Source of the DNA: an uncultured Methylopila sp.
Lineage (GTDB): Bacteria; Pseudomonadota; Alphaproteobacteria; Rhizobiales; Methylopilaceae
Assembly: GCA_902168115.1 (NCBI GenBank)
Contig: CABHPB010000072.1
Coordinates: 62,001 to 126,000 of the forward strand
Direction: 5' to 3'
DNA: 64,000 nucleotides
Position 1 is the first letter of the stretch, and each line of letters begins with the position of its first letter. A program made the position numbers and the translations under genes. The notes under the pieces were generated by a model. That model was not told where the DNA came from. It saw only the letters and a program-made list of their open reading frames with translations, and ran no database searches. Below, in pieces: positions 9,407 through 21,795 of the stretch.

Positions 9407-11550
9407 GTCTCGACGTCTCCCGGGCCTTCGGCCTTCGGCTTGGCGTTTCTTGACCGGCGGTTCGCCGCCGGCGCGACGGCCAGCAACAGGACCGCGCTCT
9501 GCGGACCGACATCGACCGTGTCGCCTGGCGCCGCGCGCTCGGCCATCTCGGGCTTGCCCGTGTCGATCAGGATCGTCGAAGGCAGCGCCGGGGCAGGCGC
9601 GACGAAGGAGACCGGAGCTTCGGTGGGGTTCAGCATCAGGGTCAGGATCGATACGGCGCCGTCGTCCCGCTGGGCGGCGCGGCGCAGGCTCAACGTGCGT
9701 TCCTCGTGATCGTTCCAGTCCTCCGAGCCAAGATCCTGACCGCGCTCGTCGAACCAGGCGATGTCGAGCACGCCCGCCGCAGGCTGCTCGCGGCCATGGA
9801 GGAACTGCTTGCAGCGCAGGATCGGGTGCTGGCGACGCAGCTCGGTCAGGCGCGCGACGAAGGCGACCAGCGCCTCGCCGTCCGGCGTCTCCGCGCGTCG
9901 CCAGTCGATCCACGAGGTCTCGTTGTCCTGCGCGTATGCGTTGTTGTTGCCGTGCTGCGTGCGGCCGAACTCGTCGCCGGCGAGCAGCATGGGCGTTCCT
10001 TGAGCGAAGAACAGCGTCGCCAGCATCGCCCGCTGCAGGCGTGTCCGGCGGGCGCGGATGGAGGGATCGGCTGTCGGGCCTTCGACGCCGCCGTTCGACG
10101 AGTAATTCTCCCCGTGGCCGTCGCGATTGTCCTCGCCATTGGCGAGGTTATGTCGTTGCACATAGGCCGTCGCGTCGGCGAGCGTGTAGCCGTCGTGGCT
10201 CGCGACGAAGTTGATCGACGCCCATGGCTTGCGCGAGCGCCGGTCGAACAGATCTGATGAACCGGCGAGCCGCGCCGCGAGCTCCGGGCGCTGGCCGGCG
10301 TCGCCGCGCCAGAACCGCCGCACGCTGTCGCGGTACTTGTCGTTCCACTCGGCGAAACCGGGCGGGTGGCCGCCGAGGTGGTAACCGCCGGGACCGATGT
10401 CCCACGGCTCCGAGATGAGCTTCACCCGGGAGAGCGTCGGGTCCTGCCGGACCGCGTCGAAGAAGCCCGAATTTGGATCGAAGCCGTGATCCTCCCGGCC
10501 GAGCGTGACGCCGAGATCGAAGCGGAAGCCGTCGACGTGATAGGCCTCAACCCAGTAGCGGAGCGAGTCCATCACCATCTGCAGCACGCGCGGATGGCTG
10601 AGATTGACGGTGTTGCCGCAGCCGGTGTCGTTGACGCAGCGGCGCCAGTCGTGGGCCTCCATCCGGTAGTAGCTGAGATTGTCGAGGCCGCGGAAGGAGA
10701 GCGTCGCGCCTTCCTCGCTGCCTTCGGCGGTGTGGTTATACACGACGTCGAGAAACACCTCGATCCCGGCCGCGTGCAGGCGGCGGATCGCGACCTTCAT
10801 CTCATTGAGCGAGCCGTCGGAGAGATAGCGCGGCTCGGGCGCGAAGAAGCCGATCGTGTTGTAGCCCCAGTAGTTGCGGAGCCCCATCTCGACGAGGCGG
10901 CGGTCCTGCACGAAGGCGTGGATCGGCAGCAGTTCGACGGCGGTGATCCCGAGCCGCTTGTAGTGCTCGATCATCGGCGGGCTCGCGAGCGCCGCGAAGG
11001 TGCCGCGCTCGTGCGGGCGGATGTCCGGCCGCAGCATCGTCAGCCCGCGGACATGGGCCTCGTAGATGACGGTCTCGTGCCAGGGAACGTTGGGCGGCCG
11101 GTCGTCGCCCCAGTTGAAGGCGTCGTCGACCACCACGGCCTTCGGCATGCCGGGCGCGGAGTCGCGCCGGTCAAAGGAGAGGTCCGCACGGGGGGAGTGC
11201 AGGCGGTAGCCGTAAAGCGCGTCCGACCAGCGCACCTCGCCGAAGACCTGCTTGGCGTAAGGGTCCAATAGCAGCTTGTTCGGATTGAAGCGGTGGCCGT
11301 GCTGCGGGTCGTAGCCGCCGTGCGCGCGGAAGCCGTAGAGCAGACCGGCGCGGGCGTCCGGCAGGTAGCCGTGGAACACCTCGTCGGTCTTCTCCGGCAG
11401 CGGCATGCGCGCGATCTCGCGCCGGCCGGACGGGTCGAACAGGCAGAGGTCGATCTGCTCGGCATGGGCGGAAAAGACGGCGAAGTTGACGCCGAGCCCG
11501 TCCCACGTTGCGCCGAGCGGGTAGGGCGAGCCTTCCTCCAGCGTGGTCAT
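9403..11550 (-). CDS. glgX: glycogen debranching enzyme GlgX (operon copy)
   Basis: Isoamylase-type GH13 enzyme that hydrolyses alpha-1,6 branches of glycogen. The 715-residue protein starts with a CBM48-like sandwich (residues 8-120), then the barrel with GFRFDLGVTLGRE (nucleophile Asp345), LISEPWDIGPGGY (acid Glu381) and ASHDGYTL (Asp453). The C-terminal tail (about 695-715) is basic and low in complexity. It begins the second half of the operon after an 85-base gap from glgB, and feeds linear chains to TreY/TreZ. A second glgX lies at 19714-21795. The two differ in sequence, so they are not a recent duplication. Confidence 0.95.
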   Translation of the reverse strand: MTTLEEGSPYPLGATWDGLGVNFAVFSAHAEQIDLCLFDPSGRREIARMPLPEKTDEVFHGYLPDARAGLLYGFRAHGGYDPQHGHRFNPNKLLLDPYAKQVFGEVRWSDALYGYRLHSPRADLSFDRRDSAPGMPKAVVVDDAFNWGDDRPPNVPWHETVIYEAHVRGLTMLRPDIRPHERGTFAALASPPMIEHYKRLGITAVELLPIHAFVQDRRLVEMGLRNYWGYNTIGFFAPEPRYLSDGSLNEMKVAIRRLHAAGIEVFLDVVYNHTAEGSEEGATLSFRGLDNLSYYRMEAHDWRRCVNDTGCGNTVNLSHPRVLQMVMDSLRYWVEAYHVDGFRFDLGVTLGREDHGFDPNSGFFDAVRQDPTLSRVKLISEPWDIGPGGYHLGGHPPGFAEWNDKYRDSVRRFWRGDAGQRPELAARLAGSSDLFDRRSRKPWASINFVASHDGYTLADATAYVQRHNLANGEDNRDGHGENYSSNGGVEGPTADPSIRARRTRLQRAMLATLFFAQGTPMLLAGDEFGRTQHGNNNAYAQDNETSWIDWRRAETPDGEALVAFVARLTELRRQHPILRCKQFLHGREQPAAGVLDIAWFDERGQDLGSEDWNDHEERTLSLRRAAQRDDGAVSILTLMLNPTEAPVSFVAPAPALPSTILIDTGKPEMAERAAPGDTVDVGPQSAVLLLAVAPAANRRSRNAKPKAEGPGDVET

Positions 11551-13815: not shown

Positions 13816-13819
<4 letters not shown>
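11636..13819 (-). CDS. glgB: 1,4-alpha-glucan branching enzyme GlgB
   Basis: Forms alpha-1,6 branches in glycogen-like glucan. The 727-residue protein has two N-terminal carbohydrate-binding sandwiches (about 20-110 and 125-230), as in full-length bacterial GlgB. The GH13 barrel carries [10 protein letters not shown] (nucleophile Asp407), ITIAEEST (acid Glu460) and [12 protein letters not shown] (Asp528). The ATG at 13819 overlaps the stop of the treS-maltokinase gene (ATGA); a second in-frame ATG lies two codons in. It acts directly after GlgE, branching the linear chains GlgE makes. Confidence 0.97.
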
Positions 13820-17126
<3,307 letters not shown>

Positions 17127-17130
<4 letters not shown>

Positions 17131-19127
17131 ATGGTCGCTCCAAGCGGCGCGCGCAGGCGCCAGACGTGGAACGGCAGCTCGTGCGGGTTCACGTAGATCG
17201 AGTGGTTCTTGCCGGTCAGCGTGAAGGCGTTTCCGCGCATCAGGTCCTCGACCTCGAGCGTGCCGTCGTCGGGCAGGTCGAACTCCCAGAGCGGCAGCTC
17301 GTAGCCGGCGTTGCGCTCGGAGAACGGATCGAGCGAGACGAACACGAAGATCATGTCCTCGAGCGCCGCGCCGTCGATGCTTCGCCGGCCCTTGCCGAAG
17401 CAGAGGATCTGGTCGTCGAAGCAGTTGAAGAACTTCACGTCGAGATGGCTGTGCAGCGCCGGGTTTTCCCGGCGGATGCGGTTCAGCCGCGTGATCTCCT
17501 GGATGATGTTGCCGGGCTGGTTCCAGTTGCGGACCCGGATCTCGTACTTCTCGCTGTCGAGATACTCTTCCTTGCCCGGAAGGGCGGCGCTCTCGCAGAT
17601 CTCGAAGCCGTTATACATGCCCCACAGGCCCGACAGCGTGGTCGCGAGCGCGGCGCGGATCAGGAAGCCCGGACGGCCTGACGTCTGCAGGAAATACGGG
17701 TTGATGTCCGGCGTGTTGACGAAGAAATGCGGCCGGAAGAAATCCTTCGGCGCCGTCGTCGACAGCTCGGTCAGGTACTCGGCGATCTCGTGCTTGTGGT
17801 TGCGCCAGGTGAAGTAGGTGTAGGACTGCGAATAGCCGACCTTGGCGAGGCGATACATCACCTTCGGGCGCGTGAACGCCTCCGACAGGAAGATCGCGTC
17901 CGGGTGCTTGGCCTTCACTTCGGCGATCATCCACTCCCAGAACGGGAACGGCTTGGTGTGCGGATTGTCGACCCGGAAGGTCTTCACGCCCTCCGAGGCC
18001 CAGAACAGCACGACGTCGCGCAGCGCCTCCCAGAGGCCCGGCTCGGCGTCGGGGCCGTAGAAGTCGACATTGACGATGTCCTGGTACTTCTTCGGCGGGT
18101 TCTCGGCGTATTTCATCGAGCCGTCGGGCCGCCACTTGAACCAGCCCGGCTGCTCCTTCAGCCACGGATGGTCCGGCGAGCACTGGATCGCGAAGTCGAG
18201 CGCGATCTCCATGCCGTTCTCTGCGGCCGCCGCCACCAGCGCGCGGAAATCCTCGAGCGTGCCGAGCTGCGGGTGGATCGCGTCGTGGCCGCCCTCGGCG
18301 GCGCCGATCGCATAGGGGCTGCCGACGTCCTCGGGACCGGGCGTCAGGGTGTTGTTCGGGCCCTTGCGGTTGGTCTGGCCGATCGGGTGGATCGGCGGGA
18401 AGTAGAGCACGTCGAAGCCCATGTCGCGGATCTGCGGTAGGCGGCGGATGACGTCGCGGAACGTGCCGTGCTTCAGCGGGTCGCCGCTTTCGGAGCGCGG
18501 GAACAGCTCGTACCAGCTCGCGTATCCGGCCTGGATGCGCTCGACCTCGAGCGGAAACGGCTCGGTCTGCGTGCGATGTGCGCGCGGATCGGCGGCCTTG
18601 GCGGCCGCGGCGGTCGCCGACGACAGCAGTTCGGCGACGCGCCCGCCGGTGTCGGCGGGCCGGGTGCGCAGGACGATGTCCGCGACCGGACGGGCGTCCT
18701 CCGCGTCCGCGGCGGCGGCGTGCTCCTCGAGCATCTGCAGCCCCTCGTCGGTCTCGAGCTTCACGTCGAGCCCGGCGTCCCGCTTCTTCGTCAGGTCGCG
18801 GCGAAACGTCCCAAAGTCGTCCCACCAGGCCTCGATCGCGAACTCATGCGCGCCGATGACGCCCGGCGTGAAGCTCGCGCTCCAGCGATCGTTGACGAGC
18901 TCGTGCATCGTCGCGCGGCTCCAGTCGCCGGACCCTTCGCGTCGCCAGAGAACCTCGGCTTTGAGGACTTCGTGGCCGTCGGCGAAGATGTCGGCTTCGA
19001 TCGTGAGGGGGCGGCCGACGATCGTCTTCACGGGGAAGCGCCCGCCGTCGACGGTCGGCGTGATCGACTCGATCGCGATCCGCGGGCGCTCCGTCGCGGC
19101 GGCTGCCTCGGAGGAGGCTTTCAGCAT
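17127..19127 (-). CDS. glgE: alpha-1,4-glucan:maltose-1-phosphate maltosyltransferase GlgE
   Basis: Extends linear alpha-1,4-glucan using maltose-1-phosphate. The chosen product has 666 residues, the usual size. Domain order: N-terminal sandwich (about 14-125), helical insert, GH13 barrel with TFRVDNPHTKP (nucleophile Asp387), FLSEAFTRP (Glu416) and VNTPDINP (Asp474), C-terminal sandwich. The frame extends to an ATG at 19229, but I chose the ATG at 19127 because CGGAG lies 6-10 bases before it, while the upstream ATGs at 19229, 19214 and 19151 lack a ribosome site. It is the first gene of the seven-gene operon. Confidence 0.96.
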
Positions 19128-19201
19128 GCGTGGCTCCGGTTGATCGTGCATTGATTCGGCTGAATTCTGTGCCCTGAAGCTGGCGGCGCGGTCCCCTGTC
19201 C

Positions 19202-19226
19202 GGAACTTAGACATCGGTCGCCGGTT
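19202..19226 (+). promoter_or_regulatory. EcfG-like general stress promoter (one mismatch) before the DUF2934 gene
   Basis: GGAAC (19202-19206), a 16-base spacer, then GGTT (19223-19226). The alphaproteobacterial general stress sigma factor EcfG is known to use GGAAC-N16/17-CGTT, so only one -10 base differs. The position suits a start about 35 bases before the ribosome site of the gene at 19267. Functional assignment is inference. Confidence 0.35.
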
Positions 19227-19266
19227 CATTCCGACAACCCCTTTGGAACCTTTCAGGAGGGCGCAG

Positions 19267-19605
19267 ATGGGCGATCGCGAGACGCGAATCCGGGACGAGG
19301 CCTACCGAATCTGGGTCGAGGCCGGCCGTCCCGACGGCGACGATCATCGCTACTGGTACGAGGCCGAGAAACGGGTCGACGCGAGCGACAGATCCGGCGG
19401 CAAGACCCGGACGGTGAGGGTCGTGGCGCAGAGCGCGGCGAACGCCGGCGTCGCGGCGCCGGTCGCAAAGCCCGTCGCCAAATCGGCCGCCAAGCCGGGC
19501 AAGGGCGCGCCGGTCGACGTCGCGCCGGCGAAGGGTCCGAAGTCGCCGTCGCGCAAGCCCACGTCCAAGCCCACGTCCAAGCCCCCATCCAAGCCGAAGG
19601 CCTGA
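19267..19605 (+). CDS. DUF2934 domain protein with Lys/Pro/Ala-rich tail
   Basis: The 112-residue product has an N-terminal DUF2934 block (IRDEAYRIWVEAGRPDG, then YWYEAEKRV, residues 7-36), followed by a disordered basic tail rich in Lys, Ala and Pro that ends in KPTSKPTSKPPSKPKA. The ATG at 19267 has AGGAGG 6-12 bases upstream; an upstream start at 19243 lacks one. DUF2934 proteins are small alphaproteobacterial proteins of unknown role, and the tail resembles those of nucleic-acid-binding or abundant stress proteins. It lies divergently from glgE and upstream of a second glgX, behind an EcfG-like promoter, which suggests a stress-related role (inference). Confidence 0.85.
   Translation: MGDRETRIRDEAYRIWVEAGRPDGDDHRYWYEAEKRVDASDRSGGKTRTVRVVAQSAANAGVAAPVAKPVAKSAAKPGKGAPVDVAPAKGPKSPSRKPTSKPTSKPPSKPKA
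19558..19600 (+). repeat. short tandem repeat in the DUF2934 gene tail
   Basis: Units of about 12 bases (CCCACGTCCAAG and variants) repeat three to four times and encode the K-P-T-S-type motif. Such runs vary in copy number by slippage without breaking the frame. Confidence 0.6.
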
Positions 19606-19634
19606 CCGGCCCCGGCGGCGGCGCGCGGACCAAG

Positions 19635-19659
19635 GGAACGGTCCGCCTCCTGCGCCGTT
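19635..19659 (+). promoter_or_regulatory. consensus EcfG stress promoter before the second glgX
   Basis: GGAAC (19635-19639), exactly 16 bases, then CGTT (19656-19659), followed by a T/C-rich stretch. This is a perfect match to the consensus GGAAC-N16/17-CGTT of the general stress sigma factor EcfG. A purine-rich AGCAGGGGGA at about 19679-19688 would be the ribosome site in the leader. Confidence 0.65.
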
Positions 19660-19713
19660 TCTTTCGCGGCGCAACATCAGCAGGGGGACGGGCGCGCGCG
19701 CCCGGCGAATCCG

Positions 19714-21795
19714 ATCGCTACGACCACCGACATCAGGACCGATCGCCACGTCGAAGCGGGGCGTCCGAACAGGCTTGGCGCGACCTTCGACGGCGAAGGC
19801 ACCAATTTCGCGCTGTTCTCGGCCCATGCCGAGCGCGTGGAGCTCTGCCTGTTCGACGACAGGGGGAACGAGGTCGAGCGGGTCGAACTGCCGGAATATT
19901 CCGACGAGATCTGGCACGGCTACCTGCCGGGCGTCACGCCCGGCCAGCTCTACGGCTACCGCGTCCACGGACCCTACCGGCCCGAAGACGGCCACCGGTT
20001 CAATCCGAACAAGCTGCTGATCGACCCTTACGCCAAGTCGCTGGTGGGCACGATCGCGTGGAACGACGCCCACTTCGGCTACAAGCTCGACGACGAGGCC
20101 AAGGACCTGTCCTTCGACGAGCGCGATTCAGCGCCGTTCACGCCCAAATGCGAGGTCGCCGACACCGCGTTCGACTGGGGCAAGGACGTCAAGCCCGAGA
20201 TCCCATGGGACCGTACGGTGTTCTACGAGACCCACGTGCGCGGCTACACGATGCTGCACCCGGACGTGCCCGAGGACATCCGCGGCACGTTCGACGGGCT
20301 GAGCCACAAGGCGGTGGTCGACCACATCAAGGCGCTCGGCGTCACCTCGGTCGAGCTGCTGCCGATCCACGCCTTCCTCGACGACCAGCACCTCGAGGCC
20401 AAGGGGCTGAAGAACTTCTGGGGCTACAACTCGATCGCCTTCTTCGCGCCGATGGCGCGCTACGCCGGCCACGGCGAGAAGTCGGGCCGGGCGCGGCTCG
20501 CGAGCTTCAAGCACCTCGTCCGCACCTTCCACAACGCCGGGATCGAGGTGATCCTCGACGTCGTCTACAACCACACGGCCGAGGGCAACGAGCTCGGGCC
20601 GACGCTCTCCTTCAAGGGCATCGACAACCTCAGCTACTACCGCACGATGCCGGACGAGCATCGCTACTACATCAATGACACCGGCACCGGGAACACGGTG
20701 AACACCAGCCATCCGCGCGTGCTGCAGATGGTCACCGACTCGCTGCGCTACTGGGTGGAGGAGTGCCATGTCGACGGCTTCCGCTTCGACCTCGGCACGA
20801 TCCTCGGCCGCGAGCCGGGCGGGTTCGATCCGCGCGGCGGCTTCTTCGACGCGGTCAACCAGGACCCGACGCTGCGGCAGGTGAAGCTGATCGGCGAGCC
20901 GTGGGACATCGGCCCCGGCGGCTACCAGGTCGGCGGCTTTCCCTCAGGCTGGGCGGAATGGAACGACAAGTATCGCGATACGGTGCGCGACTACTGGAAG
21001 TCGGGCTCCGGCGCGATGGGCGACCTCGCCGCCCGCGTTCTGGGCTCGGGCGACGTCTACGACCAGCGCGGCCGCCGGCCGTGGGCGACCGTTAATTTCA
21101 TCGCCGCCCATGACGGTTTCACCCTGCACGACCTCGTCTCCTACAACGACAAGCACAACGAGGCGAACGGCGAGGACAACAAGGACGGCCACTCCGACAA
21201 CCGCAGCTACAATTACGGCTTCGAGGGCGAGACCGACGACGAGGGGATCGTCGCGACGCGCGAGCGCCAGAAGCGCAACTTCCTCGCCACGCTCCTGTTC
21301 AGCCACGGCACGCCGATGATCCTCGCCGGCGACGAGTTCGGCCGCACCCAGCAGGGCAACAACAACGGCTATGCCCAAGACAGCGAGATCTCCTGGGTCA
21401 ACTGGGATCTCAACGAGAACAACCAGAAACTGCTCGCCTTCACGCAGAAGCTGGTGAAACTGCGGGCCGAAAACCCGATCCTGCGCCGCTCGAGCTTCCG
21501 CGACGGCATGGTCATCGAGTGGATCAACCCGAACGGCGGGCCGCAGACGGAAGAAGCCTGGCGCGACCCCGGCGCGGACTGCATCGGCCTGAAGCTGCAG
21601 ACGCAGGATGGCGCGAGCGCCTTCGTGATCTTCAACAGCCATGACGGCGTCGTGCCGTTCACGCTCCCCGACCGCGCGGGCGAGCGACCGTGGACCGTGA
21701 AGGTCGACACCGAGCGCCCGGAGGAGGACGAACGCGACGTCGCCGGCGGCGCGACGATCGACGTGCCCGGCCGGTCGCTGCTGCTGATGATGTGA
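19714..21795 (+). CDS. glgX: second glycogen debranching enzyme GlgX, start codon abnormal
   Basis: Isoamylase-type GH13 enzyme with GFRFDLGTILGRE (nucleophile, residue 359 from the chosen start), LIGEPWDIGPGGY (acid, 395) and AAHDGFTL. Conserved GlgX sequence (RPNRLGATFDGEG, then TNFALFSAHAE) begins at about 19762. However, no ATG, GTG or TTG occurs in this frame between the preceding stop (19603) and a GTG at 19837, which would cut off the start of the CBM48 domain. I place the start at ATC 19714 (reads as xATTTDIRTD) as the likeliest equivalent of the family N-terminus, giving 693 residues. The alternative is GTG 19837 (652 residues). A perfect EcfG promoter lies upstream. See findings. 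Confidence 0.85.
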   Translation: MATTTDIRTDRHVEAGRPNRLGATFDGEGTNFALFSAHAERVELCLFDDRGNEVERVELPEYSDEIWHGYLPGVTPGQLYGYRVHGPYRPEDGHRFNPNKLLIDPYAKSLVGTIAWNDAHFGYKLDDEAKDLSFDERDSAPFTPKCEVADTAFDWGKDVKPEIPWDRTVFYETHVRGYTMLHPDVPEDIRGTFDGLSHKAVVDHIKALGVTSVELLPIHAFLDDQHLEAKGLKNFWGYNSIAFFAPMARYAGHGEKSGRARLASFKHLVRTFHNAGIEVILDVVYNHTAEGNELGPTLSFKGIDNLSYYRTMPDEHRYYINDTGTGNTVNTSHPRVLQMVTDSLRYWVEECHVDGFRFDLGTILGREPGGFDPRGGFFDAVNQDPTLRQVKLIGEPWDIGPGGYQVGGFPSGWAEWNDKYRDTVRDYWKSGSGAMGDLAARVLGSGDVYDQRGRRPWATVNFIAAHDGFTLHDLVSYNDKHNEANGEDNKDGHSDNRSYNYGFEGETDDEGIVATRERQKRNFLATLLFSHGTPMILAGDEFGRTQQGNNNGYAQDSEISWVNWDLNENNQKLLAFTQKLVKLRAENPILRRSSFRDGMVIEWINPNGGPQTEEAWRDPGADCIGLKLQTQDGASAFVIFNSHDGVVPFTLPDRAGERPWTVKVDTERPEEDERDVAGGATIDVPGRSLLLMM

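Follow-up and report, generated by a model that had tools for sequence, protein, structure and literature searches.

A second glgX gene of an uncultured Methylopila sp. lacks a canonical start codon, retains a conserved N-terminus and probably starts at AUC

Genes and features at the locus

The window, i.e. the whole stretch of 64,000 nucleotides that was analysed, lies on contig C72 of a draft genome of 4.1 Mb in 154 contigs. Its gene glgX2 was read directly as a stop-to-stop frame at 19606-21792 on the forward strand. The glgX2 product matched the model TIGR02100 with 1036.5 bits against a cut-off of 640.9 over residues 16-692 (ATC 19714 being residue 1 throughout) and stayed below the cut-off of another GlgX model, NF002983 (774.5 vs. 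901). A CBM_48 domain (residues 21-107) and an alpha-amylase domain both scored above the Pfam cut-offs. The conserved motif GRPNRLGA begins with its first nucleotide at 19762, where an earlier note on this DNA had placed the onset of conserved GlgX sequence. The features of glgX2 and its leader are as follows.

19635..19659, forward strand: EcfG-type (general stress response) promoter motif GGAAC-N16-CGTT, from direct reading and conservation in the genus
19682..19687, forward strand: Shine-Dalgarno-like site AGGGGG, best anti-Shine-Dalgarno duplex of -9.4 kcal/mol, 26 nt from ATC 19714
19689..19704, forward strand: inverted repeat CGGGCG-CGCG-CGCCCG, a predicted 6-bp hairpin that would put AGGGGG within 10 nt of the ATC
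19714..19716, forward strand: proposed start codon ATC, aligned with ATA in genome G009 and with CTA in the ATG-starting genome G012; no other near-cognate codon ahead of the conserved domain is common to the window and G009
19714..21795, forward strand: glgX2, glycogen debranching enzyme, 693 aa if ATC 19714 is the start (TIGR02100, CBM_48, alpha-amylase)
19723..19725, forward strand: place of the family ATG (residue 4), ACC in both the window and G009
19837..19839, forward strand: first in-frame canonical codon GTG, GTC in G009; a start here would cut the N-terminal part of CBM48

Another glgX gene, glgX1 (9484-11541, reverse strand), is located about 10 kb away and is 57% identical to glgX2. 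The open reading frames between the two genes (13816-19229, reverse strand) are presumably those of a TreS-maltokinase and of GlgE. The same spacing of about 10 kb on one contig was observed in 11 of the 12 other genomes of the genus, and in G009 the two genes are on two contigs. Just upstream of the promoter motif, a short lysine/proline-rich open reading frame (19243-19605, forward strand), which we take to be DUF2934-like, ends in the frame of glgX2.

The two halves of the promoter motif, GGAAC (19635-19639) and CGTT (19656-19659), are separated by 16 nt. The motif was found ahead of glgX2 in all 13 genomes of the genus, with N16 in 12 of them and N17 in one, and in these 13 genomes the start codon (ATC, ATA or ATG) follows 79-94 nt after its first base. 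On both strands of the 64 kb, GGAAC-N16/17-CGTT occurs three times, one of them ahead of glgX2. Its sequence, its distance from the gene and its conservation ahead of the orthologues all agree with an assignment as a putative EcfG-type promoter.

Absence of a canonical start codon

Direct reading of the glgX2 frame revealed no ATG, GTG or TTG between the stop codon TGA 19603 and GTG 19837. With this, the promoter, the ribosome-binding-like site and the codon gap described in the earlier note were all read again from the letters. The only ATC, ATT, ATA or CTG codons in the same interval of this frame are ATC 19714, ATC 19732 and CTG 19813. In the other two frames, the first canonical codon 3' of the promoter is TTG 19775, followed by ATG 19826.

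In order to compare the N-termini, glgX2 was read in related genomes. All 13 genomes of the genus, the window genome counted, have the gene, and residue 4 is ATG in 11 of them; only the window genome and G009, an independent genome of another species, have no canonical start there, both carrying ACC at residue 4. In G009, the glgX2 frame is devoid of ATG, GTG and TTG between the preceding stop codon (residue -207) and residue 84, the earliest position with a canonical codon. The two genes share 95% identity at the protein level and 91% at the DNA level. Named members of the genus among the matches listed were Hansschlegelia, Methylopila and Chenggangzhangella. In the complete Chenggangzhangella chromosome (genome G008, locus L038, G008:C1:4321067-4323132), glgX2 is in two pieces lying in two frames and split near residues 87-98, which reflects either a frameshift or a sequencing error; residue 4 of this genome was read via L038.

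Among 108 readable GlgX loci listed, in which some genomes occur twice, only those of the window and G009 lack a canonical codon upstream of about residue 25. L002, L003 and L015 had been excluded from this count beforehand, and L038 was dropped since its best match begins at residue 94. No further start-less GlgX locus was found among the 80 genome-scan matches listed, L038 included. As a control for the neighbourhood, 19 hand-picked open reading frames of the window were compared with the matching frames of G009, G012 and G001 with respect to putative starts; w1, w285, w340, w220, w13 and w326, judged to be antisense, in the wrong frame or unsure, were left out. A possible canonical start codon is shared with at least one relative by 18 of the 19, and glgX2 is the exception: its first canonical codon in common with G009 is codon 216 of the stop-to-stop frame (residue 180), and with G012 codon 205.

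The absence of a canonical start in glgX2 is therefore confirmed as real and common to two species in which the gene is conserved. A sequencing or assembly error in the window, which the draft state of the genome with its 154 contigs might have suggested, is extremely improbable, since the second, independent genome also has no start and has a different codon at residue 1; start loss by mutation or sequencing error, as considered in the earlier note, is not supported, given the equal absence in another species.

Three further ways around the missing codon were considered. A readthrough fusion of the open reading frame 19243-19605 with glgX2 was rejected, as the upstream frame differs in G009; the frame common to both in the window is therefore regarded as chance. 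A start in another frame combined with frameshifting was also rejected, because no canonical codon occurs in any frame from the promoter end to codon 20 in either species. A leaderless start is unlikely, as the position of the -10 element would place the promoter about 50 nt upstream.

History of the start codon

A protein tree was built from residue 5 on with 15 rows, 12 from the genus and three from the family, and rooted at the midpoint; G008 was omitted because of its broken frame. The window genome and G009 were recovered as sisters with a support of 100/99 and grouped with G012 at 100/100. Since residue 4 is ATG in 11 of the 13 genomes and ACC in the window and G009, a single ancestral loss of the family start is the simplest reading. 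At residue 1, the aligned triplets are CTA in the ATG-starting G012, ATA in G009 and ATC in the window.

The last triplets bear on a recent decay of the gene, in which each species would have lost its start independently, e.g. an ATG at residue 1, with glgX1 (9484-11541) covering the function. ATC and ATA are each one change away from ATG, and a second glgX with 57% identity is nearby. However, two independent losses at one codon would be required, and by hand count an ancestral ATG needs four changes at residue 1 vs. two for an ancestral ATA. Moreover, neither copy has an internal stop codon, and the promoter motif is intact in both. Recent decay is thus considered improbable, and the earlier note's suggestion of it does not fit a gene that is conserved in both species despite the absent start.

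Selection on the N-terminus

Substitutions between the window and G009 were counted for the part of the protein that canonical starts do not reach. Residues 5-41 contain 12 synonymous and five nonsynonymous differences (dS 0.65, dN 0.063, dN/dS 0.10), and residues 5-83 contain 22 and eight (dS 0.55, dN 0.046, dN/dS about 0.08). The corresponding values for residues 84-693 are about 122 and 39 (dS 0.37, dN 0.028, dN/dS 0.08), and dN/dS over residues 5-693 is 0.078. Fisher tests on rounded site counts gave p values of 2e-5 for residues 5-41 and 9e-10 for residues 5-83. Compared with residues 84-693, residues 5-41 have elevated values of dN as well as of dS. The stretch beyond the reach of canonical starts in G009 is preserved as protein, with a ratio near that of the rest of the gene.

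Because the N-terminal stretch is under purifying selection, decay, error and truncation are all disfavoured. Very recent separate losses of an ATG at residue 1 in both species would yield identical numbers; this double loss is less favoured, as it needs two events at one codon and an ancestral ATA requires fewer changes.

The truncated enzyme started at GTG that had been proposed in the earlier note can be judged on the same data. GTG 19837 is the first in-frame canonical codon of the window, and residue 42 is also GTG in six of the 11 ATG-starting members of the genus. With a start there, 41 residues would be lost and CBM48 would score 39.2 instead of 73.2 bits. G009 carries GTC at this position and has no canonical codon before residue 84, and purifying selection acts on residues 5-41, which precede the GTG. 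Such a truncated protein in the window species is therefore very unlikely. Of the interpretation in the earlier note, the rare-start reading was supported, and error, decay and the truncated enzyme were not. The sequence comparison strongly supports a non-canonical start from which the N-terminus is translated.

Proposed start codon

Between residues -8 and 40, near-cognate codons common to the window and G009 occur only at residue 1 (ATC in the window, ATA in G009), residue 20 (AGG, AAG) and residue 34 (CTG, CTG). The codons at residues 20 and 34 fall within the conserved GRPN-LGA block or downstream of it. As these two positions sit in conserved family sequence, residue 1 is the best candidate, in line with the rare start at ATC 19714 that the earlier note had envisaged and for which the aligned ATA in G009 and the purifying selection on the N-terminus now argue. 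ATA is otherwise rare, with two of 3917 codons in seven genes of the window and none of 609 in the rest of the G009 glgX2; a shared isoleucine codon near an N-terminus is in itself not rare. The assignment of AUC 19714 (AUA in G009) as the exact start codon appears well supported.

Alternatively, the N-terminus might be translated from another non-canonical codon near residues 2-8, e.g. ACG/ACC at residues 3-4. Both species have ACC at the old start place, residue 4, and beyond this codon the frame is conserved. On the other hand, ACC is two positions off AUG, ACG at residue 3 is ACC in G009, and apart from residue 1 no near-cognate codon shared by the two species precedes the conserved block. 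In addition, the two differences between the window and G009 within residues 1-4 are both synonymous. A start at one of these other codons is rated as rather unlikely.

Shine-Dalgarno site and predicted hairpin

Sites were scored by their duplex with the anti-Shine-Dalgarno sequence, and what we take to be its core pattern, GGATCACCTCCTT, is found at two places in the window's own genome. The best site, AGGGGG, has a duplex energy of -9.4 kcal/mol in both species and is 26 nt away from the start in the window and 27 nt in G009. Because this distance differs by 1 nt between the species, the leader frame itself is regarded as non-coding. Within 13 nt of the start, the best site has only -2.1 kcal/mol in the window, which gives a split pattern of a strong distant site and a weak near one. 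G009 also has a near site, GGAG, located 3 nt before ATA with -5.4 kcal/mol. This is within the range of the ATG-starting relatives, where the strongest site no more than 13 nt from the ATG has -4.7 to -6.7 kcal/mol in 10 of the 11 genomes and -3.6 kcal/mol in G003. Given the near GGAG, the distant AGGGGG may be unneeded in G009. G001 carries a strong distant Shine-Dalgarno-like site (-9.5 kcal/mol at 33 nt) despite its ATG start.

The 26-nt spacing and the candidate hairpin within it were absent from the earlier note. G009 and G012 have counterparts of the predicted 6-bp hairpin, with 7 and 8 bp, respectively, and the spacing that would remain is 10 nt in the window and 9 nt in G009. One pair of the stem is G-C, G-U and A-U across the set of three formed by the window, G009 and G012. 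By chance, 26 nt of the GC-rich window DNA would contain 0.46 stems of 6 bp or more. None of five leader folds was clearly more stable than its shuffles (z from -0.01 to +2.50); for the 95-nt leader of the window, 199 of 200 shuffles folded at least as well, and the best predicted structure of the 95-nt leader of G009 differs from the hairpin. Since chance stems are frequent and shuffles equally stable, the hairpin was not accepted as proof of bridging.

Model and significance

The data are probably best explained by an intact glgX2 with a stress promoter, an AUC/AUA start and a distant AGGGGG that is perhaps bridged by a hairpin. In this model, transcription would start just 3' of the EcfG-type promoter and produce a leader roughly 50 nt long. 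AGGGGG (19682-19687) would hold the ribosome, and the hairpin at 19689-19704 might absorb the excess spacing and bring the AUC to about 10 nt from AGGGGG. Initiation would then occur at AUC 19714 in the window species and at AUA at the equivalent place in G009. Discrimination by IF3 against AUU, AUC and AUA would keep the output low and couple it to the level of IF3, which may provide control and a benefit.

A more specific reading is put forward tentatively and is at present doubtful. Here, the weak, IF3-gated AUC/AUA start and the hairpin-bridged distant Shine-Dalgarno site would act as a double brake, resulting in low, IF3-responsive GlgX2 despite the strong stress promoter, and this arrangement would have arisen on one branch of the genus where the swap of the ATG can be placed. 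If true, synthesis of a glycogen-mobilising enzyme would be low but IF3-responsive under a stress promoter. The evidence for start loss comes from two genomes.

To our knowledge, few natural AUH starts (AUU, AUC or AUA) exist outside infC. Gene callers limited to ATG, GTG and TTG truncate or drop genes with such starts; for glgX2 they would deliver a GTG-truncated protein in the window and a protein without most of CBM48 in G009. The ATC and ATA sisters beside ATG relatives represent a small evolutionary experiment in which a start codon was lost and the gene was kept. Moreover, the species pair bears on whether a distant Shine-Dalgarno site together with a hairpin permits the loss of a start codon.

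Comparison with known systems

An AUU start of infC is known in other bacteria such as E. coli. In seven of seven genomes of the genus that were searched (loci L155-L159, L153 and L154 in G000, G009, G011, G001, G012, G006 and G003), an AGAGGAG site in infC is followed by a conserved ATT, with an ATG four codons further on. This ATT is very likely the AUU start of the IF3 gene, the alternative being the downstream ATG. Since infC is very likely already IF3-gated, glgX2 would be a second AUH gene sharing this control.

Starts at AUU, AUC and AUA occur in bacteria, and IF3 discriminates against them (PMC4611024); IF3 and third-base pairing are treated in PMC10158994. For Staphylococcus aureus, AUA starts are described in infC, ccpN and citZ and an AUU start in cvfC1, with extended Shine-Dalgarno motifs in infC, cvfC1 and ccpN; in reporters, the starts of ccpN, citZ and cvfC1 reached about 10% of AUG in poor medium, and that of ccpN at most 30% in rich medium (PMC13009471). 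A Bacillus subtilis fusion with an AUC start mutation had much lower expression (PMC10303841), and non-ATG starts are described in sugar-regulator genes of enterobacteria (PMC11445065). As in the AUH genes covered there, an AUH codon is the only plausible start of glgX2, a strong Shine-Dalgarno site is present and the feature extends over more than one species (PMC4611024, PMC13009471), and a metabolic gene is among the known cases (PMC13009471). Unlike these genes, glgX2 has a candidate start codon that varies between sisters (AUC, AUA) and a strong site 26-27 nt off, and it encodes an enzyme and follows an EcfG-type motif.

For the spacing, genes 38 and 25 of phage T4 offer a parallel, as their Shine-Dalgarno distances of 22 and 27 nt are cut by structure to 5 and 11 nt (PMC3014915). 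In glgX2 the site is likewise too distant (26 and 27 nt), and an intervening structure would leave 9-10 nt. However, the phage genes start with AUG and their structure was tested by mutation and probing (PMC3014915), whereas the hairpin of glgX2 is a prediction that chance could give. With respect to the promoter, glgX of Sphingomonas melonis is part of an EcfG-dependent trehalose cluster with a GGAAC-type motif, and glgX2 resembles it in its putative membership of the general stress regulon together with a trehalose cluster and in its motif; the upstream region of the S. melonis glgX was tested as a putative indirect EcfG target (PMC6599016). On the best reading, glgX2 would be one more case of a known kind, the IF3-gated AUH starts, distinguished by its unusual location and leader.
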